Below, in pieces: positions 41,430 to 64,000 of a stretch of DNA of 64,000 nt (its first letter is position 1; each line of letters starts with the position of its first letter). Below the pieces are notes generated by a model, which ran no database searches, was not told the origin of the DNA, and saw nothing but the letters and a program-made list of their open reading frames with translations. A program made the translations under genes and the position numbers. Source of the DNA: Salinibacterium sp. SWN167 (GTDB lineage: Bacteria; Actinomycetota; Actinomycetes; Actinomycetales; Microbacteriaceae). The stretch is from the NCBI RefSeq assembly GCF_015864665.1, contig NZ_JADYWU010000001.1, forward strand, positions 1,178,001-1,242,000, in the 5' to 3' direction.

Positions 41430-42284
41430 ATGGTTTCGAATCAGTACACGGTTGTGCTGCCTAACGGGCCTCTGAGCGTGACGGCGTATGCCAATTCAGA
41501 CCGCGGATCAGTGCGCACTTTGAACGAAGACAGCATGCTCGTGTTGCCTCGCGTCTACCTCGTTGCCGACGGAATGGGCGGGCATTCATTCGGCGATCGC
41601 GCGAGTCAGTGCGTTGTTCAGAGCGTCGCTCGTGCAGTGGCGCAGCACGACATCCTCACGCCCGAACACATCGTTCATGCCATCTCAGAGGCCAACCTCG
41701 CCGTCATCGCGCTTCGTGGAGAAGAAGACGGAGTATCGGGAACAACCCTGTCGGGCATCGCTCTGGTCTCTGTGGGGGCCGACGAAGAAACTCGTTGGAT
41801 GGCGTTCAATGTGGGGGACTCCAGAATTTATGGTTGGGATGGGCGAAGCCTGCAGCAGCTCTCCGTCGACCACTCTGCCGTGCAAGAACTCATCGACCTC
41901 GGGCACATCACCTCGATCGAAGCATCCGTTCACCCCGATCGCAACGTGATCACGCGAGCCCTGGGCATCCACTCTCACGTCGATCCGGATTTTTGGTTAT
42001 TGCCAGTTGCGACGCAGCAGACTTTTGTTGTGTGCTCCGACGGCCTCACGAAAGAACTCGACGACGACCTTATTGCAGGCATTCTTGCTGACCGTGCCGC
42101 TCTCAGTGACGACGAATCGATCGCCGATCGACTCGTTGCGGCCGCCATCGCGGCCGGCGGCTCAGACAACGTCACGGTTGTCGTAGTCGACGCTGCGCGT
42201 GCCGCCGACAATGACGCAACCGATGAAGACACTGTCGACCGCGTCATTCCGCAGCACCTCGAACAAACCCGACCCAGGAAGTAG
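41430..42284 (+). CDS. PP2C-family Ser/Thr protein phosphatase (PrpC/PstP-like)
   Basis: A 284-residue cytoplasmic phosphatase. Metal-binding motifs are NEDSMLV, VADGMGGH, and the late SDNVTVVVVDA; GDSRIYGWD and CSDGLTKELDDD are also typical. The Shine-Dalgarno GGGGGC lies 8 bases before the ATG. It removes phosphates from targets of the Ser/Thr kinase three genes downstream and is the first gene of the long plus-strand cluster that ends in the type VII module. FHA proteins between the two are candidate phospho-readers. The last ~25 residues are an acidic tail. Confidence 0.95.
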   Translation: MVSNQYTVVLPNGPLSVTAYANSDRGSVRTLNEDSMLVLPRVYLVADGMGGHSFGDRASQCVVQSVARAVAQHDILTPEHIVHAISEANLAVIALRGEEDGVSGTTLSGIALVSVGADEETRWMAFNVGDSRIYGWDGRSLQQLSVDHSAVQELIDLGHITSIEASVHPDRNVITRALGIHSHVDPDFWLLPVATQQTFVVCSDGLTKELDDDLIAGILADRAALSDDESIADRLVAAAIAAGGSDNVTVVVVDAARAADNDATDEDTVDRVIPQHLEQTRPRK

Positions 42285-42290
42285 AACGCA

Positions 42291-43565
42291 GTGGTAACGA
42301 AGTATCTCTGTGAACCAGCCGCTGATGCCGCATGGTCAGCGGTCGTTGGCGAGCAACTCATCATTCTTGTCGACTCATCGGACTCGGCGCTTATCGAGCG
42401 GCTCTGGACTAACCGGATTGCAGGAGCGCAAGCGGCCGTCGAGGTGCTGAGCGCCCGCGGTCTCTCGGCTACGCCGTCATTTGCCCTCGTCGAGTGGACG
42501 GCGGATGACACCACTTCGGCGGGTGCCCGCGCTATCGTGCGCGGAGCAGCGAGCGTGGTTTTCAGCACCGCCACCGGTTCGCACACCGTAAGCGGAACAC
42601 GTGTGAGCACATGGGCAGAACACCATTTTGATGACGTTCGCGACTGCGTGATCGCGATCGACGGCCGCGCCGCTGGACGGAGCGATGAGACGCGCCATGA
42701 GGTATTCCTCCCGATATTCGCGGGCGTTGTAAAGACGATGAGCGTCCACTCGTCACGCAGCAGCAGCCGCAGCACAGCGACTCCCGCTTCGCTGGAGTCT
42801 CCAAGGCTGACTCCCAGCGCCCCCGAGTTGGCAGACGCATTGCCGCCAGCCGCCGCAGTGTCGGAGGCGACGATGGTCGACCGACCAGATCAGTTCTCCG
42901 ACATTCCGCCGGGAGTGAGCGCAGCATCCGCCGCCCGCAAGGGCGATACCGCCGTCGACGACGCTCAGGGATACGACTTTCTCTTCGGAGAAACCGTCAT
43001 GCGCAACGTCTCGGAAGCCGCCAGCGGCAACGAAAATGACGTGAGCGCCGAAAACGCGGATGTCGCGCCGCCGCCGGCCCCAGAAGCTGGCTCAGAGTTC
43101 CTGGGTGCAGAGCAACCGGCGGCAGAGGGCGACCACGATGGTTTGACGATCATGACGGCGGATCTTGCGAGTCTGCGAGCCTCGCAACCGAAACCCTCGA
43201 CGGTGAGCGATTCACCGCCCAATCAGCCCACGCTCTATCTCGACCTCTCGACTGGTGCCCGCGAGGTGCTTTCTCAGCCGATTTTGGTTGGACGCGCACC
43301 AACCGTGGCCAAGGTGTCGAGCGGAGCGCTACCTCGACTCGTCACGATCCCCGGCGATAAAGACATCTCTCGCAATCACGTTCAGATCGTTGTCGAGGGC
43401 GGAACGGTGGTCGTTACCGACTTGCATTCTCGAAACGGCACTCATGTGACATTGCCGGGTCGAGCCTCTCAACGGCTGCGTGCCGGGGAGCCGACAGCGG
43501 TGATTATAGGCACCGTGATCGATCTCGGTGGCGACGTCACTCTCACCGTGAGTGAGGGGGCGTAA
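42291..43565 (+). CDS. FHA-domain protein with an unrecognised N-terminal domain
   Basis: A 424-residue protein starting at GTG 42291, 6 bases after the phosphatase. Residues 1-145 form an alpha/beta domain I cannot assign (EQLIILVDSSDSALIERLW, then SFALVEWTADDTTSAGARAIVRGA), followed by a long Ser/Ala/Pro/Asp-rich linker (about 150-315). The C-terminal ~100 residues are an FHA domain: PILVGRAPTVAK, then DISRNHVQIVVEGG and DLHSRNGT, with the Arg, Ser, His and Asn needed for phospho-Thr binding. It should dock on a Thr-phosphorylated partner of the kinase encoded next. No membrane helix is seen. Confidence 0.88.
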   Translation: MVTKYLCEPAADAAWSAVVGEQLIILVDSSDSALIERLWTNRIAGAQAAVEVLSARGLSATPSFALVEWTADDTTSAGARAIVRGAASVVFSTATGSHTVSGTRVSTWAEHHFDDVRDCVIAIDGRAAGRSDETRHEVFLPIFAGVVKTMSVHSSRSSSRSTATPASLESPRLTPSAPELADALPPAAAVSEATMVDRPDQFSDIPPGVSAASAARKGDTAVDDAQGYDFLFGETVMRNVSEAASGNENDVSAENADVAPPPAPEAGSEFLGAEQPAAEGDHDGLTIMTADLASLRASQPKPSTVSDSPPNQPTLYLDLSTGAREVLSQPILVGRAPTVAKVSSGALPRLVTIPGDKDISRNHVQIVVEGGTVVVTDLHSRNGTHVTLPGRASQRLRAGEPTAVIIGTVIDLGGDVTLTVSEGA

Positions 43566-45223
43566 TGCGTCGGGCTCCCTCAACGCCGCCCGAACTCCCG
43601 GGCTACACGTTTGTGAAGCTGTTAGGTTCGGGCGGCTTCAGCGACGTCTTTCTCTATGACCAGCACCTTCCTAAGCGTCGGGTCGCAGTGAAAGTCCTCC
43701 TCACCGAAGACTTAGCGCCGGCTACTCGCGCATCGTTCGTGGCTGAAGCCAACCTGATGGCGCAGCTCTCGGCGCATCCGTATATCGTTTCCATTTTTCA
43801 TGCGGATGTTGCCTCTGACGATCGACCCTATTTCGTCATGGAATACTGCTCGGGCCCGAGTCTCGCTGAGCGATACAAGAGCGCTCCGCTCGCGGTGACC
43901 GATGTTTTGCGGGTGGGCATCCGAGTGAGCGGCGCGGTCGCCACTGCGCACGGCGCTGGCATTCTGCACCGCGATATCAAGCCCGCCAACGTGCTCACTA
44001 ACGATTACGGTTGGCCGGCTCTCACCGACTTCGGTATCTCTTCGGCGCTCGATGACGAGATTCCGCTGCACACGAGTTCGCGCTCGCCACTCATCGAAGA
44101 GAGCGGCTCAACGACCGGGGCGTCGATCGGTATGTCGATACCGTGGTCGCCGCCCGAGATGTTCGACGACGATCCGAATCCGGATGTTCGTGCCGACGTG
44201 TTTTCGTTAGCGGCCACGCTCTACACTCTCCTCGCCGGGCATACGCCGTTCGAGGTGCGTGGTCGATCTAATGGTGCTCTTGACCTCATCGGCCGCATCG
44301 AACGTGGACTCATCACTCCGCTCACGCGGGAGGATGTGTCGGCCAGCTTTCTCGCCGTGTTGCGCAAGGGTATGGCATCTCGTCGCGACGATCGGTTCGC
44401 GAGCGCACTTGATCTGGCACGAGCATTGCAGCGCGTTGAACTGGAATTGGGTTACGCCCCGACGACCGTCGACGTGCCGAACCTTGTCGTCGATCAGGTC
44501 GCTCCGGCCGGAGCCGAGGATGACGACGACGCCACGCGTGCGCGAGGGGTTGCAACGATCGAAGCGCAGCCTTCGGCTGCCGCTCCCGCGGCTGATCGCG
44601 TCGCAGACGCTCCCATTGCGGGCACTGTCGCCAGCGCAGACGAGACTCAGCTCCGCGGTGCTCCCCAGCGGATCGCCCAGCCAGGGGGAATGGAGTTGGG
44701 CGAGACCGTGGTCCGCCGCAGACCGCCCGCGAACGAGGCCGCTGACTCGACCACAGAACCTTTTGAGATGGCGACGACGCGCGAAAGCGAGCTGAAGACG
44801 CGAACATCGTCTCCCCGAAAGCCACTGCCGTGGATCATCGGAGGAGTCGCAGCCGCCGTCGCGATTGCCGTCGGCGTAGCGGTCTTCATCACGAATCCGG
44901 TTTCCACAGAGGTTCCCTCGGTTGCGGCTCCCACCACGGCTCCCACCTCCGCAATTGTGGAGAGCGTGCCAACGCCGGTGCTCGTGTCCGCATCCGAAAC
45001 TGCCGGTTCCGTAATTTTTACCGTCGATAACCCCTCGGGCGACGACGACGATCGCATCATCTGGCAGCGGGTGGGGCGCGACAGTGAGCCGGTTCGACAA
45101 TCGGAAGACGGCGTCATCACCGTCGACGGTTACGCTCCGGGAGTCACACTTTGTATCGACGTGAGGATCGTGCGCGCCGGCACCGAATCTGCTAATCCGT
45201 TGGAGGCGTGTTTTCCCGAATGA
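43565..45223 (+). CDS. Transmembrane Ser/Thr protein kinase
   Basis: A 552-residue kinase; ATG 43565 shares a base with the upstream stop (TAATG). The Hanks motifs are intact: P-loop GSGGFSDV, K43 in VAVKVL, H-R-D with D137 in HRDIKPANVL, and D155 in TDFGIS. PPEMF replaces the usual APE. The juxtamembrane region (about 300-415) is long and Ala/Asp/Thr-rich, a likely autophosphorylation region; one membrane helix (about 421-441) precedes a ~110-residue external domain with two Cys (LCIDVRI, LEACFPE) and no PASTA repeats. It would phosphorylate FHA partners in this cluster. Confidence 0.95.
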   Translation: MRRAPSTPPELPGYTFVKLLGSGGFSDVFLYDQHLPKRRVAVKVLLTEDLAPATRASFVAEANLMAQLSAHPYIVSIFHADVASDDRPYFVMEYCSGPSLAERYKSAPLAVTDVLRVGIRVSGAVATAHGAGILHRDIKPANVLTNDYGWPALTDFGISSALDDEIPLHTSSRSPLIEESGSTTGASIGMSIPWSPPEMFDDDPNPDVRADVFSLAATLYTLLAGHTPFEVRGRSNGALDLIGRIERGLITPLTREDVSASFLAVLRKGMASRRDDRFASALDLARALQRVELELGYAPTTVDVPNLVVDQVAPAGAEDDDDATRARGVATIEAQPSAAAPAADRVADAPIAGTVASADETQLRGAPQRIAQPGGMELGETVVRRRPPANEAADSTTEPFEMATTRESELKTRTSSPRKPLPWIIGGVAAAVAIAVGVAVFITNPVSTEVPSVAAPTTAPTSAIVESVPTPVLVSASETAGSVIFTVDNPSGDDDDRIIWQRVGRDSEPVRQSEDGVITVDGYAPGVTLCIDVRIVRAGTESANPLEACFPE

Positions 45224-45927
45224 ATCCGCTTCGAGTTGAGTTCTGCGGCGAGTGGTACGACATTGCTCACCCCAACGATTTTCATGTCGGTCGGGAATCC
45301 GACCTGGTCATCGACGACAACCCCTACCTGCACCGTCGTTTTCTTCGGATATATGAAGATTTTGGGATGTGGTGGCTAGCAAACGTGGGCAACCTGCTGA
45401 CAGCGACCGTGACTGATGCCACCGGTCAAGTGCAGGCATGGCTAGCGCCCGGAGCACGGCTGCCGATCGTTTTCCCCCAAATGCAGGTGCTGTTCAGCGC
45501 GGGGTCTACGACGTACGAATTCACTATTCACGCGGGTGATGACTACTACAACACGTCGACGGCGTTAGCGGGAACGGGTGGCTCGACGACGATCGGTCCG
45601 ATTCCCCTGACGTCGTCTCAGCGGTTGCTCATCGTGGCTCTTGCAGAGGGAGTACTGCGTCAGTCGACGGCAGGCCGAGGGGATATTCCGACCTCTGCCG
45701 TTGTCGCGGCGAGACTCGGCTGGTCGATCACCACGTTCAATCGCAAGCTCGATAACGTATGCGAGAAGCTCGACAAGCGCGGTGTCGCGGGTTTGAGAGG
45801 GGGCAAGGACAATCTCGCCACCAACCGAAGGTTGCGACTCGTGGAGTTTGCCGTTGCGACCAGACTTGTCGATAAAGACGACCTCTATTTGCTTGATCGC
45901 AATGACGAGGAAGGCCGCACCCCATGA
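45220..45927 (+). CDS. FHA-domain protein fused to a winged-HTH-like region
   Basis: A 235-residue protein. ATG 45220 overlaps the kinase stop by 4 bases (GGAGG 45203-45207 favours neither start strongly; GTG 45208 is the alternative). Residues 1-110 look like an FHA domain: FHVGRESDLVIDDNPYLHRRFLRI supplies the Arg and His landmarks, though the SxxNG loop is poor. Residues 130-215 contain LTSSQRLLIVALAEGVLRQ, SAVVAARLGWSITTFNRKLDNV and KRGVAGLRGG, which read like a winged-helix DNA-binding region. A phospho-responsive transcription factor is a plausible role. It does not carry an obvious membrane segment. Confidence 0.75.
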   Translation: MNPLRVEFCGEWYDIAHPNDFHVGRESDLVIDDNPYLHRRFLRIYEDFGMWWLANVGNLLTATVTDATGQVQAWLAPGARLPIVFPQMQVLFSAGSTTYEFTIHAGDDYYNTSTALAGTGGSTTIGPIPLTSSQRLLIVALAEGVLRQSTAGRGDIPTSAVVAARLGWSITTFNRKLDNVCEKLDKRGVAGLRGGKDNLATNRRLRLVEFAVATRLVDKDDLYLLDRNDEEGRTP

Positions 45928-46072
45928 TTGGGGCCGCGGCAGGGGAGAACTACCCATACACTGCCCTACTGAGAGAAGTTGAAAAATGCTACGGTAATTG
46001 CCAGAAGTGATCGAAGAAATGTCAGCGTGATCGTGTGCACGCAAGCTGTGCCGAGTTCGGGAGTAGTGCAAC

Positions 46073-49000
46073 GTGAAGCTGTCTATCGGTACTACGCGCC
46101 AGCGTAAGACAATCGCCTCAGCGGTCGTAGTCTCGCTCGTTGTCGGTGTGCCTCTGACATTCGCTGCATTGCACCCAGGGTTTCCCGTTTCCGATGTCGA
46201 CCTCACCGCCAGCGATGTCTGGGTGACCAACGGCGAACAACTGCTCGGCGGTCGGCTTAATCGCCAGATCGACGAACTCAACGGGTCAGTTATCGCCTCG
46301 AGCGCACAATTCGATGTGCTCCAGGATGGCGACGCTCTCTTCATGAGTGACCCCGTCGCCAACCGCATTGAATCGGTTGATCCCGCAACGACAGAAGTAA
46401 CCTCGGCCATTGACGTCCCCAGCGACGCCGACATCTCTTTCGGCGGCTCGAACTTGGCTATCGTTTCGCCCAAGGGTGAGCTGTGGATTGTGCCCGCCGT
46501 CGGCGACCTGCAGTTCAACTATGTTTCAGACCCCGCTCTGATCGAGCTTGGCGATGGCGGCCGCGCGACGGTCACGGCCGAAGGCGTCGTCATTGCTGTC
46601 TCGCCAGAGAAGAAGGCGATCTATCGCGTCGAGACGATTGCCGACGAACCCGTGAAGTCAGAATTCCCAGCGGTGGGGGAGTTTCAGATAGCGGCGGCTG
46701 GCGATTCCGCGGTCGTGTTCGATCAGTCAACGAACGAACTGATTCTGGAATCGGGGCGCAGCTATCCGCTTGAGAAGCAGGGCATCCGTCTTCAGCAATC
46801 GAGCACCGAATCGGAATTTGCGCTGGTTGCAACCGGCGACTCGCTCCAAAGGCTCGAGCTCGGCAACGGTGCTCTCAGCGACATTCCCGCCGACATGGCA
46901 ACCCCGGCGCAGGCGGATGGTGTCTCTGCTCCCGTCGCGCTTGATGGGTGCGCGCATGGGGCGTGGGCTTCTGCGCAACGGTACGTCCTGGCCTGCACCG
47001 GCGGCGACGCACAGACGTACGATATTGCCGAGCCGACGCAAGGAAGCGAACTAGAATTCCGGGTGAATCGCTCAGTGATAGCACTCAACAACCTTTCAAA
47101 CGGCAATGTTTGGCTCATCGACGAGAACATGCGTCTCGTCGAAAACTGGGAGGACGTGACTCCTCCAGAAGACCAGGAGTCAGAAGAAGAGGGCGACGAG
47201 AAGTCATCGATTCAGTCATTCGAAGACACTCTTGCTGAGCGAACCGACTCCAACCGAGATCCGGTAGCGGCCGATGATGATTTCGGCGTTCGCCCGGGCC
47301 GCACCACCGTATTCAGCGTGCTCGACAACGACACTGACGCTGATGGCGATGTGCTTGTAATCTCGGACTATGACCGAATCGCAGAGTCGACGGGACGACT
47401 CGACCTGATCGACGGTGGCCGTGCGCTCCAATTCACGCCGGTTCCCGACTTCGTTGGTGGCATCGCTTTCAACTACACGATCGACGATGGTCGCGGGGGA
47501 ACTGACCAGGCCCGGGTCTCGGCGACAGTTGTTCCCGAGGGGCGCAACGAACTCCCCGTCAGTGTTCGCGAAACCGGTATCAGCGTTGAAGCGAACCAGA
47601 CCGTGAGCTATAACGTGCTCGCGGATTGGAAAGACCCCGACGGTGACGATCTCTACTTGATCGCGGCTTCTCCGAAGTCCGGTGACCTCGTGAGGTTCAC
47701 GCCCGATGGCTTCGTAACGTTCACACACCAGACCTCAGAACTCGGCGAGAAGGTCGTGACCTTCTTGGTGTCTGACGGCAGCGATACTCCAGCTCAAGGC
47801 GAACTAGTCGTGACCGTGGAGCCCGCCGGAACCCTCAATCCCGTTGGTACTCCCGACTTTGCTTCGGCGTTCGAATCAGAGACCGTGGTTATCGAACCGC
47901 TGCTTAACGATCTCTCGCCGTCAGGAGCACAGCTCACTCTGATCGCGATGGACGAGGCAGACAACGGCGCCGTGGCTTCCTTCGACAGCGATCGCGGCGA
48001 GATCACCTTTAGCTCGTCATCGGCCGGGGTCTTTTACTTGACCTACACCTTGAGCGCCGGCGCGAACACGAGCGTCGGGATTGTGCGCGTTGACGTCCTT
48101 CCCAAGCCCGCATCCGCGCAGCTTCCCCCCGTCGCGGTGAAGGACACGGCGTATCTCCGTGGGGATGAGCCAACGACAGTGTCGGCGCTGTCCAACGATG
48201 TCAGCCCCAGCGGCAATATTCTCGCGGTGCAATCGATCGACGTTGATCCCGCTCTCGTCGCGAAAGGCCTCGTTGTTGAGTTGCTAGAAAGCACGCTCAT
48301 CCGAGTTACCTCGCCAGCTGCGCTCACGAGCCAAGTCAATTTCACCTACACAATTTCAGATGGCGTGAACACCGCTACGGCCGGCGTCACGGTGGTGCCG
48401 GTGCCAGCGTTGACCAAGCACCAGCCGCCCGTCGCTCTGGATGACTCCGCCAAGGTCCGTGCTGGAGACATCATCACTCTTGATGTGCTCAACAATGACT
48501 TCCATCCCGACGACAGCCCAATGTCTCTTGCCCCAGAACTCGTAACTCAGCCTGTGGCTGGCGTTGCTTTTGTCAGCCGCGACAAGCTGCGGTTCCAAGC
48601 ACCGACAGCTCCCGGTGCGTACACCGTCGACTACCGCGTTATTGACCCCTTCGGTGAGACTGCTGCGGCGACCGCTACCTTCACGGTGACACCGATCGAC
48701 GTTGACGCCAACCAAGACCCGACCCCTATTGCTCTTATCGCGCGAGTTCTTGCTGGGGGCGAGATCAAGGTCGAGATTCCGCTGAGCACCGTCGACCCCG
48801 ATGGTGACTCAACGCAGTTGCTCCGATTCCCGACAAACCCCACGCTGGGAGCGGTGACGGAGTTCGGCACTGACTACTTCATTTACGAATCCTCGACTGC
48901 AACATCCGGTACTGACTCGTTCAGCTACGAGGTAGTCGATGCATTCGGGGCGACGGGAGTCGGTGACGTCAAAATTGCGGTCATTCCAGAACCTGACGAG

Positions 49001-51673: not shown

Positions 51674-51714
51674 CGCAGCCCGAAATCACCAGTAAGCACA
51701 AAGGACACTTCAGA

Positions 51715-52683: not shown

Positions 52684-52701
52684 GCACGGCACTCTCTTCC
52701 T

Positions 52702-54081
52702 GTGACTACCGACTCTGCTGTGAGCTCCGACGCCCGTGCCGATGCCCGTGCCGACGCTGAGCGCGCCCGGGCAGCGGGCTCGCGGGCGACGGAGCGTGAA
52801 CCAGCCCGAGCCACGGCCGCGACGCCGGGCTTCGTGACGCGCGCGAGCGAGTCGATTCGCCGAGTGTTGCGGGGTGCCGCCGCGGTGCTCTCGCCCGTTA
52901 TTCGGGCAGTCGTTCGGGCTCTCGCGCCCGTGCTCGGTGTGGTGACGCCACTCGGTTGGTTGGTCCTGATTCTCGCGACGGCTGCTTTGCTCCTCAGTAT
53001 CGGTTTTGGCTGGCAAGAGTTCACCTTCCTCGCTGCTGTGTTGTTCGCAGCAGTGGTCGTGAGCGTTGCGTTCTTGTTCGGGCGAGCATCGTACGGCGTG
53101 GTCGTCGAACTCAACCCTCGCCGCGTAGTCGTTGGCGATCGAGCGCTGGGGCGCATGGTCGTCACTAATGTTGGTGCACGACCTCTGCCTCCCACCCGCA
53201 TGGAGCTTCCCGTCGGTAAAGGTGTCGCAGAGTTTCAGCTTCCCGCGATGAAGCCGCAAGCCGAGCACGAAGAATTATTCGCGGTGCCCACGGCTAAACG
53301 AGCAGTGATCGTCGCCGGCCCGGCAGAGTCCGTGCGGGGCGATCAGCTGGGGCTGCTGCGTCGGGCTCTCAAATGGGCGGATGCCGTCGACCTGTTCGTG
53401 CATCCGCGCACGGTCCGCCTTGTTCCGTCAGCGGCGGGTCTGGTGCGCGACCTCGAAGGTCAAGTGTCGAACAAGATCACCAATAACGACATCGCTTTTC
53501 ATGCTCTTCGGCCCTATGTTCCGGGCGACGACCGCCGCTATGTTCACTGGCGTACGTCGGCGCGCATTGGGCAACTGATGGTGCGTCAGTTTCAGGAGAC
53601 TCGGCGTTCACAGCTCACGATCATCCATTCGTCTCGCAGCGAGCTCTATGCGTCTGAGGCAGAGTTCGAGCTGGCAGTCTCGGTGACGGCATCCATTGCA
53701 GCTCAAGTGATTCGCGACGGCACTCAAATGAATGTGGTCAGCGAGACAGGGTTGTGGAAAACCCAGACCGTAACGTCAATGTTGGATGCCTCGTGTCGTA
53801 TTGAGCCGAATGTGGACCGTTCCGAGACCATGCGGAGCTTCGCTCGTGGGCAGACGCGACGTTTGCCAGCCCCGAGCGTGGTCATGATTGTGGCGGGATC
53901 ACAGATGAGCACCGCCGATTTCCGCAGCATTCAATCTCTGTTTGGTCAGGACACCAGCCAAGTGGCATTCCATGTTGTCGACGGCGCTGATCCGAAAATT
54001 TCAGCGGTGGCCGGTCTGACGGTCATCACCATTGGCGATCTCAATGATCTGTCGCGACTCGTTCGGGGGTTGGGCGGTTGA
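52702..54081 (+). CDS. DUF58-domain membrane protein
   Basis: A 459-residue protein starting at GTG 52702. An Arg/Ala-rich N-terminus (about 1-60) precedes two membrane helices (about 85-130: PLGWLVLILATAALLLSIG, FLAAVLFAAVVVSVAFLFG). The DUF58 signature lies near residue 272 (ALRPYVPGDDRRYVHWRTSARIG). The remainder has a VWA-like fold but without a complete MIDAS. These proteins partner MoxR; the precise biochemistry is unknown. It overlaps the next gene by 4 bases. Confidence 0.92.
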   Translation: MTTDSAVSSDARADARADAERARAAGSRATEREPARATAATPGFVTRASESIRRVLRGAAAVLSPVIRAVVRALAPVLGVVTPLGWLVLILATAALLLSIGFGWQEFTFLAAVLFAAVVVSVAFLFGRASYGVVVELNPRRVVVGDRALGRMVVTNVGARPLPPTRMELPVGKGVAEFQLPAMKPQAEHEELFAVPTAKRAVIVAGPAESVRGDQLGLLRRALKWADAVDLFVHPRTVRLVPSAAGLVRDLEGQVSNKITNNDIAFHALRPYVPGDDRRYVHWRTSARIGQLMVRQFQETRRSQLTIIHSSRSELYASEAEFELAVSVTASIAAQVIRDGTQMNVVSETGLWKTQTVTSMLDASCRIEPNVDRSETMRSFARGQTRRLPAPSVVMIVAGSQMSTADFRSIQSLFGQDTSQVAFHVVDGADPKISAVAGLTVITIGDLNDLSRLVRGLGG

Positions 54082-56423: not shown

Positions 56424-56448
56424 AACTACCCTGTGCACAGGAGGCCTT

Positions 56449-57636
56449 GTGAGTATCACTCTGGACGACGAAGAGAACCTGATTCTTGGCCTCGATGACA
56501 CAGGCCGCCCCGACCCCGGCTACGCACAATCGTTGGGTCTGGTAGCGGCATCGGCGGGCTCGCGCTCACTTGCCTTCACTATCGATGCTGCAATAGTCCT
56601 GTTACTCACCCTTCCTCTTAGCTTGGGCACGCTCCCTCTCTGGATGGGTGTTTTTCTCACTACATCTTTCACGTCCCCCGAGGCGTTGCTCCGTAACGAT
56701 GAGTTCATCACTGGACTCGTCTACTACGGAATTGGTCAGGGCTTGCTGTGGCTATTCGTCTTCGTCCAAATCATCGTGCACGGGCTTCGTGGGCGCACTG
56801 TCGGCAAGGCCATCGTTGGCATCCGCTCGGTGAAAGTATCGACATTCGAGAAGCCAGGATTCTGGCGCATGTTTCTGCGGGGAATGATTTTCTGGATGGC
56901 TCTGGCGATTGTTCCGATACTTGGCGGCATCCCATTTTTGCTCTCGCCGCTCTGGGATCGAGAACATCGTGGACGGGGATGGCTCGACAAGATCGGTCAC
57001 AATTGGCTCATTGACGTGCGGCGCGGACTGGATCCGTTCGATCTGAAAGCGCTTCGGCATGCACGGAGAAAGATCAGCGCTGTGGCGCATTCCCCGCAAG
57101 AAGAGTTGCCCTCGCTCGCTACGGGGGCTGAAGGAGCGGTGACTAGCTTCGTGCCCGCTAGCCGATCACGGTCAGGGGTCGTCTCGCCGCCCACCTTCGG
57201 CAGCGACCAGATTGAGCCGTGGCAACCCCCGCCAGTGGGGGCTTTAGTCGAACCGCCGAATCAACCCGCGCAGGGAACTGAAGCGAAAGTCCTGCTTCTC
57301 TTCGACGACGGCACCGTGATCGAGGTCACGGGCGATGGCCTCATTGGCCGCTCGCCGTCGGGGAAAGCTGATGAGAGTTTCTCGACGCTCATTCCGCTTG
57401 TCGATGAGTCGATGCGCATTTCTAAGACACACCTTGCGTTGGGCGTGGATAGTGTCGGGTTTTGGCTAATAGATCGGGGTTCTTCGAACGGGACGCCCGT
57501 TTCACCGCCCGAGGGCGAGTCGTTTTCGTTGGTGCCGTGGGAGCGCCGCTATATCCCTTGGAATTCGGTCGTTGAAGTTGGTGGTCGCAGTTTTACTGTG
57601 ACCGGAGGATCACAGATGAATGGGCGTGAAGCGTGA
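56449..57636 (+). CDS. RDD-family membrane protein with C-terminal FHA domain
   Basis: A 395-residue protein. AGGAGG precedes GTG 56449. The RDD domain spans about residues 25-195: the opening ASAGSRSLAFTIDAAIVLLL and GLRGRTVGKAIVGIRSV are family phrases, with three to four membrane helices. A linker of ~80 residues leads to an FHA domain (about 280-385): GDGLIGRSPSGK, SMRISKTHLALGVDS and DRGSSNGT carry the Arg, Ser/His and Asn landmarks. RDD proteins are channel-like or of unknown function. The FHA suggests recruitment of Thr-phosphorylated partners to the membrane. The stop overlaps essC by 4 bases. Confidence 0.92.
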   Translation: MSITLDDEENLILGLDDTGRPDPGYAQSLGLVAASAGSRSLAFTIDAAIVLLLTLPLSLGTLPLWMGVFLTTSFTSPEALLRNDEFITGLVYYGIGQGLLWLFVFVQIIVHGLRGRTVGKAIVGIRSVKVSTFEKPGFWRMFLRGMIFWMALAIVPILGGIPFLLSPLWDREHRGRGWLDKIGHNWLIDVRRGLDPFDLKALRHARRKISAVAHSPQEELPSLATGAEGAVTSFVPASRSRSGVVSPPTFGSDQIEPWQPPPVGALVEPPNQPAQGTEAKVLLLFDDGTVIEVTGDGLIGRSPSGKADESFSTLIPLVDESMRISKTHLALGVDSVGFWLIDRGSSNGTPVSPPEGESFSLVPWERRYIPWNSVVEVGGRSFTVTGGSQMNGREA

Positions 57637-60600
57637 AAATTAAGCTCTCTCTCCGGCGACAGTCAGGTTCGTTGGTCGATATTGTCGTGACCGCCGATTC
57701 AACGGCGACCATCGAAGATGTAGCTCGTGCAATCGCGGAAACCGATCCCATGTCGTCGAGCTATTCACGTGCTACAAGCGCGGTCATGACTCTCTCTGTC
57801 GCGCCACCGACGACGGGCGAATTGGTCGCGCTGCATCCAGATGCGCTAATCGGCGAAGCGGAGATCGGTTCTGGTTTTATCGCCTCCGTCACTGCGGCGG
57901 AGAACCGCAGCAATGCACATGGCGATTCCGGAATCCAGCAGGTCGCTGCGATTCTTCGTGTGTTCTCGGGGCCGGATGCGGGTAGAGAAGTTCCGCTCTC
58001 GGCCGGCCACAGCATTATTGGGCGCGGTGTGGGCGCTGACGTCGAACTGTCAGACCCGTTGGTCTCGAAACGTCACGCGCGGCTCGAGGTCGGTCAGGTA
58101 ATTGAGTTAGTGGACCTCAACTCGGCCAATGGCGTCATGGTTGACGGCGGGATGGTTCCGCGACTCAAAGTGGTCTCCGGGCAGATGATTACGTTGGGGG
58201 ATACAACTGTCACGCTGACCCCCGTCGCTTCTCAAGAGAGCACCGTCGACCCTGTTCTGGAGCGCGGGGGCGCTCTGATGTTCAACAGATCACCGCGAGT
58301 CGAGATTCGCTATCCCGGGACGGTATACCCCTACCCCAAAGTGCCGACCGAGTCTCAACCAAAAATGTTCCCCTGGCCGATGGTGGTCGCCCCGATCATG
58401 CTCGGTATTGCGATGTACACGATTACACAGCGGCCAGCCTCCCTGCTCATGATTTTCATGTCGCCAATGATGATGCTCGGAAACGTGATCAACCAGAAGC
58501 TGCAGGGTGGACAGAAGCTTAAGCAAGAAATCGAGACGTACGAGGTTCAAATAGAGGACCTCGAAGAAGAACTCGCGGAGCAAACTTCGGTTGAACAGGA
58601 ACGTCGGCGTGCGGAAGCCCCGGCGGTGGCTCAAGTGTACGAACAAGCGATGAAGCTTGGTCCGTTGCTCTGGACGAGACGCCCGGAGCATTGGAATTTC
58701 TTGACGCTGAGACTCGGCGTTGGCCGCGCGCTCAGTAGAAACTCAATTGCGGAGTCGACAGACTCCAGCGGTATTCCGAAATATGCCCGTCAAATTGAGA
58801 AGCTGCAACAACGACATAAGTGGATCGATGATGTTCCGTTGGTGGAAACTTTTCCGAGTGCTGGCGCCATCGGAATCGCCGGTTCGCGCGAAACTGCGGC
58901 TGACATCATGCGCGGTTTGGCAGTGCAGCTTTTCGGTCTCCATGCACCCAATGAGCTCATAACAGCCGCCATCGTCGACCCTTCGTGGACCCCCGAGCTG
59001 GAATGGATGAAGTGGCTGCCTCACACCAGCAGCGCACAGTCGCCATTCGCCGATATAGCGCTGGCCGATAGCCAGTCGGCGGGTACTGCTCTGCTCAATG
59101 CGCTCGAGGAAGCAATCTTGCAGCGCACCACCCAGCAGGCTTCGCATCGGGGACCGCTGAAGAGCGGTGAGGGCTCAATGTCTCTCGGCTCGACCGTGGG
59201 GGAAGGGGCGGGTGCTCGCAGCGAGCTGGGCGGCGATCTCGTACTCGTATTGTTCGTTTCTGCGGATGCCCCAGTTGATCGACCGCGTCTGACGCAGGTT
59301 ATCGAGCGCGGCGCTGATTCAGGCATTTACACCATCTTCCTTGCGCCAACGGTTGAGTCGCTTCCTGCCGCTTGCCGCACGTTCATCGATGCAACTCACG
59401 GTCTCGACAATGCCACGGTGGGGTTTGTTCGCTCCGGCGAAGACTTCGCGTCAGTAAAGCTCGAAGGAGTGTCGAGTTCGTACGCTCACGTCTTCGCCAA
59501 AAGGCTTGCTCCCGTTGTCGACTCGAGCTCAGTCGAGACGGATGCGAGTGATATTCCTCGCAGCGTCAACTTGCTGAACTTAGTGGGAACCGAGGCAGCA
59601 GATTCACCGAGCTCGGTTCTTGAGCGCTGGCGTCAGAACAATTCTGTTCTCGACAGGAGTGGGGCGCAGCTCGGCAGGCTCAAGCGTGCCGGGACGCTCA
59701 AAGCGTTCGTCGGTCAGGGAAGTCCCGATGCGATGACGCTCGATCTGCGCACCCAAGGCCCTCACGCGCTTGTCGGCGGCACAACAGGTTCGGGTAAGTC
59801 GGAGTTTTTGCAGGCGTGGGTGCTCGGTATGGCAGCGGAGTACAGTCCGGATCGCGTCACTTTTCTCTTTGTCGATTACAAGGGTGGTTCAGCGTTCGCA
59901 GATTGTGTAGCGCTGCCGCATTGCGTCGGTCTGGTGACTGACTTGAGCCCGCACTTGGTTCGACGGGCACTGACGAGCTTGCGTGCTGAGCTTCACCACC
60001 GTGAGCATTTATTTAACCGAAAGAAGGCGAAAGACCTTCTCGAATTGGAAAAGCGTCGGGATCCAGAAACACCGCCGGCGCTTGTTCTCGTGATCGATGA
60101 GTTTGCGGCTCTTGCTGGCGAAGTACCGGAGTTCGTAGACGGGGTAGTCGATATTGCCCAGCGCGGTCGCTCTCTTGGAATCCACCTCATTATGGCCACG
60201 CAACGTCCGGCAGGAGTGATCAAAGACAACCTTCGAGCGAACACGAACCTCCGTGTTGCGCTTCGAATGGCCGATGAGTCTGACTCGAAGGATGTTGTTG
60301 GCGATCCGATCGCGGGAACGTTCGATCCCTCGATCCCGGGCCGGGGAATCGCGAAGACTGGGCCGGGTCGCTTGGTTTCGTTCCAGTCCGCTTATGCTGG
60401 CGGCTGGACCGGAAGCGCCGTAACGAAGGCAGAAGTGCGTGTCGCTGAATTACGATTTGGAGCGCTTGTCTTGTGGGAGGCGGACGCGGAGCCCGAGTCT
60501 GAGTCGCATGATGAGGACCTGGGGCCCAATGACCAAAAACGTATGGTGAGCAATTTCATTAATGCCACAGGTCTTGCGCGCATTCCCTCTCCGCGGAGGC

Positions 60601-62126
60601 CGTGGCTCGATGATCTCGCCACAACCGTGGACATCGTCAATTTGCCGGTGCAAAGCGACTCACAAATCGTGCTCGGTAAAGCCGATATGCCCGAACGCCA
60701 GTTGCAAGACGCTGTCTACTTCTCCCCAGATCGAGATGGATCGATGCTGGTCTACGGAACGAGCGGATCGGGTAAGTCGGCCACATTGCGGTCGATCGCT
60801 GCGGCATCTGGCATGCGACCTGAACTTGGTGACGTCGAGGTCTACGGCCTTGACTTCGGGTCGGGGTCGCTCCGCTCGCTCGATGCCCTACCGCACGTCG
60901 GGTCGATCATCACTGGCGATGATGCTGAGCGAGTTCAGCGGCTGTTGCGCACTCTCGGCGAAATACTCGACCGCCGCGGCAAGAAATTCAGCGAAGCTAA
61001 TGCGGCCACCTTGAGCGAATATCGCGACATCACCGGGGAGCGAGAGCCACGCGTCCTGCTCCTCATCGATGGGTTCGGGCAGTTCAAAGCGGACTGGGAC
61101 GCCACAACAGCTCGCTTGCCGTTCTACAACGTCTTCATGCGAATCTTGGGGGAGGGGCGCCCACTGGGCGTTCACGTCATTGCGACCGCTGACCGCTCCG
61201 GTAGCGTGCCTTCTGCGGTGAGCGCGAATGTGACGAAGCGTATCGTGCTTCGTCTCGCGGATGAGTCTGCCTACCAAACGGTGGGGGTGCCGAAGGACGT
61301 GCTCGATGAGCATTCACCAGTGGGTCGAGCGATTGTCGATGGGTTCGAGACCCAAATCGCTATTCTTGGCGGTACATCCAACGTCGCAGAGCAATCGAAA
61401 GCACTCGAACGGCTCGCCGCCCATCTTCGCCAGCGAGGAGCTCGTGAGGTGCCAGAGATCGGCGCCCTACCGACGGCGCTGTCTCAGCTCGAACTTCCTT
61501 CGGAAATTGCGGACGAGCCAGTGCTCGGGATCGCAGAAGACACTCTCGCGCCGCGTGGTTTCGAACCGGTCGGCACGTTCTCGATTTCTGGTCCGCCCCA
61601 GAGCGGAAAGACCAACGGGATGAAGTGGATGATCACATCGATGCTCCGCTACGACCCATCCGTGAAGCTCTTCCACTTCGCCGGACGCCGGTCGCAGCTG
61701 AAGGAATTTGTGCCGTGGGTGCGGAGCGCCACCAACGTCGAGGACGCCCGTGCTCTCGCCAAGGAACTTGTTGATCTGGTTCCTGATGAGTCAATTCCTG
61801 GTCGAATCATGATCGTGGTCGAGGGTGTTACGCAGTTCGCGGATACGGATGCGGAACGCGCGATGAAAGAGCTCTTCCAGGCGATAAATCGCAGCGATCA
61901 CTTTCTTATCGGCGATGCTGATATTTCATCGCTGTCGAGCGGTTTCGGCTTTATCGGCGATTTCAAGGCGGGACGCAAGGGAATCGTCATGAAACCAGAC
62001 TCGTACGACGGAGACTCGGTATTTAAGACTCCGTTCCCGAAGGTGAAACGCAGCGACTTTCCACCAGGGCGAGGCATTTTTGTGCAGAACGGTCGTACTG
62101 TCACCGTGCAGACACCGCTGATTTAG
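57633..62126 (+). CDS. Type VII secretion FtsK/SpoIIIE ATPase with N-terminal FHA domain (EssC/EccC-like)
   Basis: A 1497-residue motor of type VII secretion. A ubiquitin-like N-terminus (1-95) is followed by an FHA domain (about 105-190: IIGRGVGADVELSD, SKRHARLEV, DLNSANGVMV), two membrane helices (about 245-288), a coiled coil (about 295-330), then three P-loop ATPase domains with Walker A Lys at K722 (GGTTGSGKSEF), K1048 and K1326 (PPQSGKTNG). Only the first has a full Walker B (D822-E823 in LVIDEF); the second reads LLIDGF, the third VVEG. Length and the FHA domain resemble firmicute EssC more than mycobacterial EccCa/EccCb. GTG start at 57633. Confidence 0.95.
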   Translation: MKIKLSLRRQSGSLVDIVVTADSTATIEDVARAIAETDPMSSSYSRATSAVMTLSVAPPTTGELVALHPDALIGEAEIGSGFIASVTAAENRSNAHGDSGIQQVAAILRVFSGPDAGREVPLSAGHSIIGRGVGADVELSDPLVSKRHARLEVGQVIELVDLNSANGVMVDGGMVPRLKVVSGQMITLGDTTVTLTPVASQESTVDPVLERGGALMFNRSPRVEIRYPGTVYPYPKVPTESQPKMFPWPMVVAPIMLGIAMYTITQRPASLLMIFMSPMMMLGNVINQKLQGGQKLKQEIETYEVQIEDLEEELAEQTSVEQERRRAEAPAVAQVYEQAMKLGPLLWTRRPEHWNFLTLRLGVGRALSRNSIAESTDSSGIPKYARQIEKLQQRHKWIDDVPLVETFPSAGAIGIAGSRETAADIMRGLAVQLFGLHAPNELITAAIVDPSWTPELEWMKWLPHTSSAQSPFADIALADSQSAGTALLNALEEAILQRTTQQASHRGPLKSGEGSMSLGSTVGEGAGARSELGGDLVLVLFVSADAPVDRPRLTQVIERGADSGIYTIFLAPTVESLPAACRTFIDATHGLDNATVGFVRSGEDFASVKLEGVSSSYAHVFAKRLAPVVDSSSVETDASDIPRSVNLLNLVGTEAADSPSSVLERWRQNNSVLDRSGAQLGRLKRAGTLKAFVGQGSPDAMTLDLRTQGPHALVGGTTGSGKSEFLQAWVLGMAAEYSPDRVTFLFVDYKGGSAFADCVALPHCVGLVTDLSPHLVRRALTSLRAELHHREHLFNRKKAKDLLELEKRRDPETPPALVLVIDEFAALAGEVPEFVDGVVDIAQRGRSLGIHLIMATQRPAGVIKDNLRANTNLRVALRMADESDSKDVVGDPIAGTFDPSIPGRGIAKTGPGRLVSFQSAYAGGWTGSAVTKAEVRVAELRFGALVLWEADAEPESESHDEDLGPNDQKRMVSNFINATGLARIPSPRRPWLDDLATTVDIVNLPVQSDSQIVLGKADMPERQLQDAVYFSPDRDGSMLVYGTSGSGKSATLRSIAAASGMRPELGDVEVYGLDFGSGSLRSLDALPHVGSIITGDDAERVQRLLRTLGEILDRRGKKFSEANAATLSEYRDITGEREPRVLLLIDGFGQFKADWDATTARLPFYNVFMRILGEGRPLGVHVIATADRSGSVPSAVSANVTKRIVLRLADESAYQTVGVPKDVLDEHSPVGRAIVDGFETQIAILGGTSNVAEQSKALERLAAHLRQRGAREVPEIGALPTALSQLELPSEIADEPVLGIAEDTLAPRGFEPVGTFSISGPPQSGKTNGMKWMITSMLRYDPSVKLFHFAGRRSQLKEFVPWVRSATNVEDARALAKELVDLVPDESIPGRIMIVVEGVTQFADTDAERAMKELFQAINRSDHFLIGDADISSLSSGFGFIGDFKAGRKGIVMKPDSYDGDSVFKTPFPKVKRSDFPPGRGIFVQNGRTVTVQTPLI

Positions 62127-62209
62127 CCGCACCATGCTGCTGACTTGAGGTTCGAGAATCGGCATGGGTAGTCCTGCCCATTGAACTAAGGTTTCGAGCA
62201 TTGCTAACT

Positions 62210-62215
62210 TATACT
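62210..62215 (+). promoter_or_regulatory. Putative -10 for the small ESX-type protein gene
   Basis: TATACT in the 141-base gap after the ATPase gene is a good -10, with no clear -35. It would give a leader of ~45 nt that carries the Shine-Dalgarno, allowing separate, stronger expression of the small secreted protein. Confidence 0.45.
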
Positions 62216-62267
62216 TCAGGTGGTCCACCAGACGGGCCAATGCAGGCAACGAGGAAGGTTCATACCA

Positions 62268-62555
62268 ATGGCAGATTTCGGCGCATCATATGGCGAGATG
62301 GAAGCAATGGCCGGCAAGCTCAAGGACGCGAGAGAAGACATTCAGGGTCAACTTGATGTTCTCAAGAACTCGGTTGACACGCTTCTCGGCAACGACTTCA
62401 AGACGCAGCACGCCTCGGGCAAGTTCGGCGACGGCTACAACGAGCTCACAACCGGGCTCAAGAACGCGACCGATGGTCTCGGCGACATGGGCGACGCGCT
62501 CAAGGGCATGATGCAGGCGATCCAGGAGCTCGACCAGAAGCTCGCGGGCGCCTAA
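62268..62555 (+). CDS. ESAT-6/WXG100-like small helical protein without the W-x-G motif
   Basis: A 95-residue protein; Shine-Dalgarno GAGGAAGG 10 bases before ATG 62268. Two amphipathic helices (about 8-40 and 50-92) with heptad hydrophobics are separated by the turn LLGNDFKTQHASGKF, where WXG100 proteins have W-x-G. A C-terminal Y-x3-D/E export signal is not seen. The length, gene position after the FtsK ATPase and helical pattern still make it the probable substrate or component, likely forming dimers. It resembles the group annotated as pore-forming ESAT-6 family proteins. A strong hairpin follows. Confidence 0.88.
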   Translation: MADFGASYGEMEAMAGKLKDAREDIQGQLDVLKNSVDTLLGNDFKTQHASGKFGDGYNELTTGLKNATDGLGDMGDALKGMMQAIQELDQKLAGA

Positions 62556-62567
62556 GACACGCTTAAC

Positions 62568-62597
62568 GCGGAGGGCCAGCACACGCCGGCCCTCCGC
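62568..62597 (+). terminator. Hairpin after the ESAT-6-like gene
   Basis: The perfect 10-bp stem GCGGAGGGCC / GGCCCTCCGC (62568-62577 with 62588-62597) lies 12 bases after the stop codon and is followed by CTTCTGTCT, a weak T-rich tail. It could partly terminate and so raise the ratio of the small protein to downstream genes. Confidence 0.65.
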
Positions 62598-62651
62598 CTT
62601 CTGTCTCAACGATCTCAAGCAGCGATTCTGCACTAGTGAAGGGTGTTCGCC

Positions 62652-62957
62652 GTGGGCGACGGAGTTCTCATTAAATACACTGAGCTTAAAGCCGTCGGTG
62701 ATCATCTGAAGAACATTATTGAAGAGCTTAAAGAGGCGTCTAAGCGCTCCAACGGGTTGGAGGCTGCGATCGGCAATCCCTTCGGCCGAACCAAACTGCG
62801 CGAGGCTGCACAAGAGTTTGAAGACGGGTGGGATGACCGTCGCAAGGCTCTTCTCGAAGACATCGAAAAAGTCGAGCAACATGTTGTCGGCGTTCTCGAG
62901 GGCTTTGAAGAGTGGGATAAAGATACGTCCAAAGAGATGGAATCGGCTTCAGAATAG
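62652..62957 (+). CDS. Small helical protein, type VII-associated (WXG/LXG-partner-like)
   Basis: A 101-residue protein starting at GTG 62652 (GAAGGG 9 bases upstream; GTG 62643 is in frame but too close). Two helices are predicted: a first with YTELKAVGDHLKNIIEELKEA, and a long second with EFEDGWDDRRKALLEDIEKVEQHVVGVLEGFEEW. The turn is AIGNPFGRTK. This shape is shared by WXG100 proteins and by the small LXG-associated proteins that chaperone LXG toxins in type VIIb systems. It precedes the large LXG-like gene by 38 bases, so it is probably its partner. Acidic overall. Confidence 0.75.
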   Translation: MGDGVLIKYTELKAVGDHLKNIIEELKEASKRSNGLEAAIGNPFGRTKLREAAQEFEDGWDDRRKALLEDIEKVEQHVVGVLEGFEEWDKDTSKEMESASE

Positions 62958-62995
62958 GCCGGATTACCCACTCGCTCGGGAGATAGAGAAAAGAC

Positions 62996-64000
62996 ATGGA
63001 AGCTTCCCCTCAAGGACGCGAGATCACGACGCTCGACGGCGACGCCGGAGCCATTGTGTCTCGCGCGAAGGACATCACGACACTCGGCGGCCAGATGATT
63101 TCATCGGCAGCGATTCTGAAAGACATTGCAGACGGCGCTGCCGGTCAGCAGGGTCTCGCCTTCGACAAGCTCCAAGAAGTTGTTGGCGATTGCTATGAGG
63201 AATTGAAGTTGGCCGGTGAACGCTACCGCCCAACAGGCTGGGTACTCAAAGATTACGGAACGGTCGTTGCGGAAGTTCAACCCCTCATCAAACGCGCGGT
63301 AGAAAACTGCGAGACCGAATGGGCCGCGTATCGATCGCGGTCTAACGAATTGGGTCTTGCGCAGATGCCCGTGGACACGCCGACGGTTTTTGTTCTGCCT
63401 GGTGAAGCTAGCCCCGATACGGAGCAAGCGCGTCAAGAGGGAATTGATACCGCGCGATCGCTAGCGAATTCCGCGTACGACGAGTGGGCCTCGGAAGCGC
63501 AGGCCTTCGATGCTTATTACGAAACGTGGGAAACTGCGTTCAATCAAGCCGCAGAGCTTATTGGTGATGCGACCGAAGGCGGAATCCAAGACTCCAATTG
63601 GGACGACCTCGACGGTGCCGTTGCTGGCGCTCTCGAAGTGCTCAAGTGGGTCGGCATTGCTCTCGCGGTTCTGGGTGTTATCGTCGGCGGTCCCTTCATC
63701 GCGGCCCTAGCAGCCATCGTCGCGATCGCGACACTTCTATTGACGATTTACGCTTTCTCTCGCGGAAATGCGAGTGTTCTCGACCTGGTCTTGGCCGGGG
63801 TCTCGGTCGTACCCTTCGGGAGCCTGGGAAAGCTATTTGGCGGAAATAAGCTGGGGTTCGTTGACGACATGGCGGGCGGCCTTCTTACCTCTGGAGGACG
63901 TGCGAATATCGTGGGTGACTTTCGGGCGATAAATTCAGGGTTCAACGCTGGTTTCGGATTCGCACAGGGCGGGGTTGCTAAGCAAGTTTTCGGCGGCCTT
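62996..64000 (+). CDS. Large LXG-like protein, probable type VII effector, cut by window end
   Basis: The frame from ATG 62996 is open to base 64000, giving 335 residues with no stop. Residues 1-205 are nearly all helical and acidic, with periodic Trp (DYGTVVAEVQPLIKRAV, TEWAAYRS, YDEWASEAQAFDAYYETW), like the N-terminal targeting domain of LXG proteins. A hydrophobic pair of helices follows (about 216-256, VGIALAVLGVIVGGPFIAAL), then DLVLAGVSVVPFGSLGKLFGG, a pre-toxin phrase common in polymorphic toxins. The C-terminal domain, which would show toxin activity, lies beyond the window. An immunity gene would be expected next. Confidence 0.8.
   Translation, partial: MEASPQGREITTLDGDAGAIVSRAKDITTLGGQMISSAAILKDIADGAAGQQGLAFDKLQEVVGDCYEELKLAGERYRPTGWVLKDYGTVVAEVQPLIKRAVENCETEWAAYRSRSNELGLAQMPVDTPTVFVLPGEASPDTEQARQEGIDTARSLANSAYDEWASEAQAFDAYYETWETAFNQAAELIGDATEGGIQDSNWDDLDGAVAGALEVLKWVGIALAVLGVIVGGPFIAALAAIVAIATLLLTIYAFSRGNASVLDLVLAGVSVVPFGSLGKLFGGNKLGFVDDMAGGLLTSGGRANIVGDFRAINSGFNAGFGFAQGGVAKQVFGGL

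Follow-up and report, generated by a model that had tools for sequence, protein, structure and literature searches.

The stretch of DNA analysed here, called the window throughout, covers 64,000 nucleotides of the 3.0-Mb genome of Salinibacterium sp. SWN167 (genome G000, C1:1178001-1242000). From position 41430 onwards it carries a cluster in which genes resembling the PFNA operon of bifidobacteria, encoding a PP2C phosphatase, a Ser/Thr kinase, a giant Ig/Fn3 surface protein, MoxR, a DUF58 protein and a transglutaminase-like (TG) protein, are followed by genes of the type VII secretion kind, in particular an EssC-type ATPase and a WXG100-family protein. On balance it is probable that the cluster represents one working system, namely a type VII (EssC/WXG100) locus of an actinomycetal subtype that includes a PFNA-type envelope and signalling module. 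This reading is carried by the recurrence of TG and EssC genes close to each other, in various arrangements, across the Actinomycetales. The PFNA genes are known mainly from bifidobacteria of the gut, and many of the bacteria with the linkage are environmental actinobacteria; a single phosphorylation-controlled export machine of this kind would so far have been described piecemeal.

Linkage of TG and EssC genes

The sample comprised 297 Actinomycetales genomes, with a TG match at 1e-20 in 188 and an EssC match at 1e-150 in 123 of them. Only EssC proteins scoring at least about 900 bits, present in 88 of these 123 genomes, were used to measure linkage. The listed TG matches reach down to about 235 bits, and the 15 EssC genomes without a listed TG were counted apart; weaker copies could add linked cases. 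In the 73 genomes with both genes listed, EssC and TG lie no more than 25 kb apart in 48, where a model that places two TG copies randomly in 3.6 Mb predicts 2.3, and the linked genomes fall in 10 of the 12 families. The family sample, in which TG was sought in 120 genomes (103 matched) and EssC in 120 (65 at E <= 1e-60), gives by itself 15 linked genomes out of 32, with 1.1 expected. The initial annotation had proposed to score such neighbourhoods and had considered that the type VII genes might be adjacent only in this strain, which these figures reject.

The spacing has its own regularities. Linked cases in families f2, f108 and f111 show a uniform gap of 6-9 kb, occupied, where it was read, by RDD-PP2C-FHA-kinase-239aa (G127; Arthrobacter L227 and L235), and in f103, f105, f107 and f4 the gap is below 0.25 kb in six out of nine. 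The arrangements vary: EssC may precede PP2C, follow either TG or the kinase block, or be inverted. Even a distant member of the phylum (G339) has Ig-MoxR-DUF58-TG-kinase (inverted)-EssC, with profile scores of 432 bits for MoxR, 229 for the kinase, 228 for TG, 191 for DUF58 and 56 for the Ig protein, the last from a cut open reading frame (ORF). Since this set of genes is found in one and the same order across many genomes, chance is excluded as the source of the gene order.

Named genomes were scanned at the best 80 EssC loci, many of them with short flanks, by means of profiles built from the Microbacteriaceae family. A TG (>150 bits) or MoxR gene was found at 24 of these best 80 loci. The linked ones belong to Arthrobacter, Paenarthrobacter, Promicromonospora, Cellulosimicrobium, Demequina, Terrabacter, Marihabitans, Propionibacteriaceae, three Microbacterium, Pseudoclavibacter, Salinibacterium, Protaetiibacter, Dactylosporangium and others, with one Streptomyces (L207, TG 189 bits). 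A FastTree phylogeny of EssC with 80 rows (76 of these loci, the window and three labelled by hand) contains 27 PFNA-linked and 37 unlinked rows and nine state changes, the remaining 16 rows, Bombiscardovia included, having been left unscored for their short flanks. As read off the drawn tree, 25 rows are linked, 8 unlinked and 6 unscored in the 39-row clade with the window (support 100*), and the corresponding numbers in the 36-row clade (98*) of Streptomyces-type ATPases and Bombiscardovia coagulans are 1, 27 and 8; the scoring profiles, being derived from Microbacteriaceae, favour the window clade and may overlook more remote homologues in the other.

Some individual loci stand apart. EssC occurs without TG at L278 (none in flanks of about 9 kb per side) and at G621:C1:1240897-1243821 (none listed in the genome). 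At G009:C1:725000-764000 (L292, L293) an EssC module lies beside two successive PFNA-type clusters in which the TG, MoxR and Ig genes are fragmented; this genome is 86% complete and 5% contaminated, so that assembly errors are possible.

The leuC locus and the rival explanations

In the window, a block of 11 kb (RDD, EssC, WXG100, the genes for proteins of 104, 421 and 220 amino acids (aa), and a 271/273-aa pair) sits exactly in the slot between TG and FHA-leuC. Besides the window, 46 stretches were mapped, ten of which (G080, G076, G089, G021, G006, G079, G008, G048, G055 and G073) read PP2C-FHA-kinase-239aa-Ig-MoxR-DUF58-TG-FHA-leuC and lack an EssC in the interval from TG to leuC. The guanine-plus-cytosine (GC) content of the block is 0.574, as compared with 0.611 and 0.604 in its two flanks, and the RDD-EssC pair recurs elsewhere as a unit, for example directly before PP2C in G086. 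The EssC module of G021, G001 and G074 is remote from their PFNA locus or lies on a different contig.

Quick topology trees of the two proteins are likewise discordant. The TG tree unites the window with G080, G076, Salinibacterium sp. G-O1 (L268) and Protaetiibacter (L209) at a support of 99*, followed by G089; in the EssC phylogeny, the window and L268 are found with G086, G074 and G119 (100*), apart from G076, G089 and L209. Forcing the TG grouping on the EssC tree is rejected (p-AU 4.5e-155, and 7.7e-7 for a three-row group). Such differing histories exclude strict co-evolution, and with the ten loci devoid of type VII genes they lead us to reject an ancestral junction. Gene order and phylogeny show the RDD-EssC-WXG100 block to be a cassette inserted into this PFNA locus, with a junction that is secondary in this lineage. 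Of the three genes that the initial annotation had described as coupled across that point, RDD and EssC do overlap, by 4 bp, and TG and RDD are separated by 25 bp. The initial annotation was right to give weight to the link and wrong to rest it on this junction. The same slot has received different EssC lineages, in the window and Salinibacterium, in Protaetiibacter (L209) and, inverted, in G118; the presence of at least three lineages at one place points to either selection for proximity or a hotspot.

A number of observations weigh against a single working system. The strongest evidence against an obligatory coupling comes from the Bifidobacteriaceae, to which family f104 corresponds (its member G896 and Bombiscardovia L258 have EssC proteins with 100% identity along 1517 aa): here an EssC of at least about 900 bits is found in 10 of 101 genomes and is lacking in 14 of the 17 that have a listed TG, the other three having one, so that PFNA occurs mostly without such an EssC. 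The ten EssC-free leuC loci, the EssC modules remote from PFNA and the exclusion of strict co-evolution point in the same direction, as do families f113 and f118, where none of six and none of five genomes, respectively, are linked (the f118 assemblies being fragmented). The Bombiscardovia locus L258 consists of WXG100, a kinase, a 149-aa ORF, a 1758-aa Ig protein, EssC and then FHA, and was labelled T7SSd from this gene content, a subtype defined by TsdA, C, D, H and I, exemplified by Olsenella uli and with Bifidobacterium among its hosts (PMC11217815, Garrett, Higginson and Palmer 2024). A TG search of the Bombiscardovia genome returned 0 matches, with a query whose ability to detect a near relative is unproven, and T7SSd seems able to do without the PFNA module. 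The Pfam matches obtained for the cluster include no channel part resembling EccB, EccD, EsaA or EssB. Moreover, the genomes compared for linkage are related, which makes nominal P values too small; the argument therefore rests on the spread over families and arrangements. Finally, we infer the functioning of the cluster as one phospho-regulated machine from sequence alone, as regards both secretion and phosphorylation.

Many of these points would fit the view that two independent systems share a neighbourhood, the PFNA genes acting alone as an envelope-sensing or surface unit beside which EssC settles, e.g., in a hotspot at the leuC slot. We regard this as a serious contender, if a rather doubtful one. 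PFNA-type genes without EssC are indeed common, in the ten relatives as in most bifidobacteria, the discordant trees indicate movement of the EssC module with respect to the PFNA locus, the GC content of the block departs from that of its flanks, and the T7SSd of Bombiscardovia comes without a detected TG. A leuC hotspot does not, however, explain a linkage that extends over 10 families, varied orders and several slots, and the uniform 6-9 kb spacing in f2, f108 and f111 points to old, maintained clusters.

Another view is suggested by a second PFNA-type cluster in the same genome, on contig C3 (G000:C3:138000-157900; L301, L115, L284), where FHA, PP2C, kinase, Ig, MoxR, DUF58 and TG genes are accompanied by those of a 1051-aa zinc-ribbon/FHA protein and a 1026-aa FtsK-type ATPase. 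This cluster is a natural replicate of the association between the PFNA module and an FtsK-type ATPase. The PFNA module might thus be a docking unit for FtsK/EssC-type ATPases in general, only some of which export WXG100 proteins. The unit with the shorter ATPase is kept in the congener G082 and also in G071, G023, G079, G064 and G111, some stretches missing parts, and no homologues of the WXG100, 104-aa or 421-aa proteins were detected beside the C3 cluster by one profile set within limited flanks. The weight of that absence is limited by its dependence on a single profile set and such flanks, and the trees were built without the shorter ATPase; we consider a general docking unit improbable and keep to a single type VII system with a PFNA-type module as the preferred reading.

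Proteins of the cluster

For two proteins the analysis adds to the initial annotation. The catalytic Cys and His positions of the cluster TG are taken to be those usual in the transglutaminase family. In an alignment of TG proteins the Cys column is occupied by D, E, Q, G, A or S in all 73 rows with a residue, among them duplicates such as L115 and G000c2, and by Cys in none, five further rows being gapped there; the His column has H in 25 rows. The window TG has Gln509 and Thr551 at the two positions, and the one bifidobacterial copy examined (G703) reads GDSEQYAS...DDIAAWVE, without Cys and His. A transglutaminase with a catalytic Cys is ruled out by this alignment. The loss of the Cys is shown by the alignment, and the cluster TG is best described as a predicted pseudo-transglutaminase. 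The same genome has, downstream, an ordinary MoxR-DUF58-transglutaminase trio (at about 85447-90000 in window numbering; L002, L003) whose genes are ordered as in the cluster, and there the motif GYC...HAW is intact, unlike in the cluster version, so that it forms a built-in control. Conservation of this trio is described in PMC6803598, citing Wong and Houry 2012.

The second case is the N-terminus of the ATPase, where the first 90 residues are suggestive of a beta-grasp. When the N-termini of 114 out of 120 full-length actinobacterial EssC proteins are combined, their profile matches an EccD/YukD-like domain in hhalign with a probability of 94.9% over 74 columns (E 4.5e-8). In the controls, the reversed profile gave 0.34, the best of 60 column shuffles 3.9% and five other local families at most 0.6. 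The N-termini outside this ubiquitin-like (Ubl) profile are those of L248, L211, G396, L219, G348 and G150; L211 and L219 are ORFs of 1912-1913 aa whose translated start is unlike a Ubl domain. The TsdC of Bombiscardovia falls within the Ubl set at E 0.0057. Less sensitive comparisons were less clear: a profile of 27 close sequences reached 11% only; the window N-terminus alone had no Pfam match; those of 27 relatives gave OTU1_UBXL in six (best 0.0043) and YukD in three (best 0.012) among unrelated families; three of six single N-termini tried hit YukD (0.00045, 0.0038 and 0.12), below the Pfam cut-off; and a PDB search with the EssC N-terminus produced nothing useful. PF08817 has no match at E <= 0.001 anywhere in the window genome, and EspC and YukD, sought as separate genes in this genome, were not matched either. 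By profile, a YukD/EsaB-like ubiquitin domain is fused N-terminally to the EssC-type ATPase, a fusion not met in the available text of Iyer et al. It is perhaps the ubiquitin-like part whose absence from T7SSd is noted as surprising in PMC11217815.

Domains were assigned with Pfam on the window ORFs and, for selected proteins, with NCBIfam, hydropathy and motif reading. The order, plus strand and domains proposed initially are borne out by Pfam, save for the fourth FHA domain, and every gene from PP2C through the 421-aa gene lies on the plus strand. The cluster opens with the PP2C-type Ser/Thr phosphatase (41430..42284; PP2C_2, 2e-11), followed by FHA1 (42291..43565), a protein with a C-terminal FHA domain (1.2e-8) and a canonical phosphothreonine motif of the type G-R / S-x-x-H / N-G (VGR...ISRNH...RNGT). 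The transmembrane (TM) Ser/Thr kinase (43565..45223; Pkinase, 3.5e-33) overlaps FHA1 by 1 bp; it has intact catalytic motifs (GSGGFSDV, HRDIKPANV, DFG), a TM-like stretch at about residues 420-448 and a short extracellular tail. It overlaps by 16 bp a gene for a conserved 239-aa protein (45208..45927; 63-82% identity in leuC-linked relatives), for which neither Pfam nor NCBIfam has a match. By eye, a degenerate FHA-like G-R...H pattern and a helix-turn-helix are possible. Of the four FHA-bearing proteins originally counted, FHA1, EssC and the RDD protein stand, and in this one no FHA domain is detected. It ranks among the better-conserved members of the cluster despite its lack of a family match.

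Next come the giant Ig/Fn3 surface protein of 1866 aa (46073..51673; Big_9, 1.4e-64; fn3, 5e-17), whose sole TM-like stretch, residues 12-37, forms an N-terminal hydrophobic anchor, the MoxR AAA+ ATPase (51715..52683; AAA_3, 3.2e-62), the DUF58 membrane protein (52702..54081; 8.6e-15; TM-like stretches between 60 and 131) and, overlapping it by 4 bp, the TG polytopic membrane protein (54078..56423; Transglut_core, 1.2e-16). The inserted block is opened by the RDD membrane protein (56449..57636; RDD, 1.1e-14), whose cytosolic FHA domain scores 19.5 bits, slightly below the Pfam cut-off of 20.7. In the EssC-type ATPase (57633..62126; FtsK_SpoIIIE, 2e-59; FHA, 2.8e-10; PDB matches to YukB and EccC5) the Ubl domain (about 1-90) is followed by FHA (about 109-197) and FtsK/SpoIIIE modules. 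Motif reading indicates intact FHA motifs in EssC, RDD, FHA1 and FHA5.

The WXG100-family protein (62220..62555; PF06013, 3.7e-10) reaches 32.4 bits with NCBIfam WXG100_ESAT6, under the cut-off of 44.85; the W-x-G triplet itself is absent although the family scores. A 104-aa protein without a Pfam match (62643..62957) is the candidate partner of the 421-aa gene product, its homologues adjoining 421-aa-type genes at other EssC loci. The 421-aa protein, a candidate secreted substrate, is encoded from 62996 to the window end at 64000 and on to 64261 in the contig. Its N-terminal part is conserved and its C-terminal part variable, the Salinibacterium copy aligning to residues 1-282 only, with a TM-like region at 208-277 and a best Pfam match of 0.015, far under the cut-off. 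The cluster as first delimited is correct for the genes within the window and too short, since the rest of the 421-aa gene is followed by a 220-aa gene (at 64910, one TM-like stretch), the 271/273-aa pair, FHA5 (67646-68401, with a clear FHA domain) and leuC, which marks the cluster end. The 271- and 273-aa proteins (L002:5864-6679 and L002:6726-7547), at the distal end of the inserted block, are adjacent and related, with three TM-like stretches each; the former has no Pfam match above chance. A promoter and terminator scan performed no better than shuffles.

As a mechanism, the membrane kinase and PP2C would set the phosphothreonine state of cluster proteins, and the ATPase, the RDD protein and two soluble proteins, whose FHA domains have intact motifs, would read this state through them so as to recruit or gate the motor. 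MoxR and DUF58 may assemble or remodel a membrane complex in which the Cys-less TG-fold protein, as a binding scaffold, and the giant Ig/Fn3 protein, which would span the wall, take part. Judged from its family, the ATPase with its fused EsaB/YukD-like part would export WXG100-type proteins and the 104/421-aa pair.

Comparison with known systems

The first part of the cluster had been likened to PFNA from the outset, and this parallel is upheld. According to PMC8430577, PFNA is unique to bifidobacteria, occurs in 71 of 86 bifidobacterial species and includes a MoxR that is a reported substrate of the PFNA kinase in bifidobacteria. Its published order, pkb2-fn3-aaa-atp-duf58-tgm on one strand, is that of the window, and PP2C and FHA genes are also common to both. 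As regards co-transcription, the window genes show short gaps and overlaps. At the one bifidobacterial PFNA locus read gene by gene (G703), profiles match all five PFNA genes (Ig 1174, TG 483, MoxR 463, DUF58 305 and kinase 273 bits). In that locus (L356:8313-14876) the giant Ig protein and MoxR share one open frame of 2187 aa, which may be a genuine fusion or result from the loss of a stop. The differences concern distribution, published as restricted to bifidobacteria, whereas here 188 of 297 Actinomycetales genomes have a TG match and mapped stretches from several families contain the gene set; the TG protein, described there as an enzyme and here Cys-less, as in the bifidobacterial copy; and the type VII genes that follow in the window.

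A defence system was considered and dropped, the PADLOC matches being generic kinase and FtsK/HerA plus one weak PP2C. With type VII systems in general, the cluster shares an EssC/EccC-type ATPase and a WXG100 protein. Compared with T7SSa (ESX), an EccD with a ubiquitin-like domain was not found in the genome, as follows from the PF08817 search, and EccB, MycP and EccE are not among the cluster Pfam matches, to which the search for them was confined. As for T7SSb, characterised by EssA, EssB, EsaA and a separate EsaB/YukD, the same PF08817 search, the one genome-wide search made for these parts, found no separate EsaB/YukD.

Two literatures do not meet, one on PFNA in bifidobacteria and host immune signals and the other on new type VII subtypes. 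Among the papers searched, none joins PFNA, FN3 and type VII; a single one mentions MoxR, DUF58 and type VII together, which looks incidental by title and term counts, and of those listed for Micrococcales WXG100 none treats the subject, as judged by titles and counts. If the linkage is functional, it provides a concrete hypothesis for PFNA, suggests which proteins could be the envelope parts of a type VII machine where no known ones are recognised, and, with the fused ubiquitin-like domain, offers an answer to the T7SSd gap. Tentatively, and with more doubt than confidence, we suggest that the PFNA genes provide the envelope side of a phospho-switched Actinomycetales type VII subtype outside T7SSa-T7SSj, in which the motor would carry the "missing" ubiquitin-like part in fused form and the Cys-less TG-fold protein, DUF58 and the giant Ig protein would replace EccB/EssB/EsaA; bifidobacterial PFNA, studied as a sensor of immune signals, would then be a descendant mostly without the export motor.

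The closest relative among the described subtypes is probably T7SSd (PMC11217815). Both have an FHA-bearing EssC-type ATPase with a conserved phosphothreonine motif, a giant Ig-like protein and an actinobacterial host. The WXG100 protein adjoining the window ATPase is a counterpart of TsdA and the membrane Ser/Thr kinase of TsdD, and the window genome resembles T7SSd in having no separate ubiquitin-like gene by the PF08817 search, a ubiquitin-like domain being apparently fused to the ATPase in both the window and Bombiscardovia. On the other hand, the window ATPase falls outside the 36-row clade (98*, FastTree) that holds the Bombiscardovia TsdC. There is no clear candidate for TsdH, a short protein with a single TM segment, among the ORFs from 41430 to leuC, the 220-aa gene having one TM-like stretch; TsdI has a signal peptide and a C-terminal TM segment, and the window Ig protein has its N-terminal stretch and no C-terminal TM segment by hydropathy. 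DUF58 and transglutaminase do not occur in the main text of PMC11217815, and the window adds PP2C, several FHA proteins, MoxR, DUF58, the TG-fold protein and RDD. Because of the different ATPase clade, the lack of a clear TsdH and the extra MoxR, DUF58, TG, RDD and PP2C genes, the cluster is not classed as T7SSd, and could well function in a similar manner.

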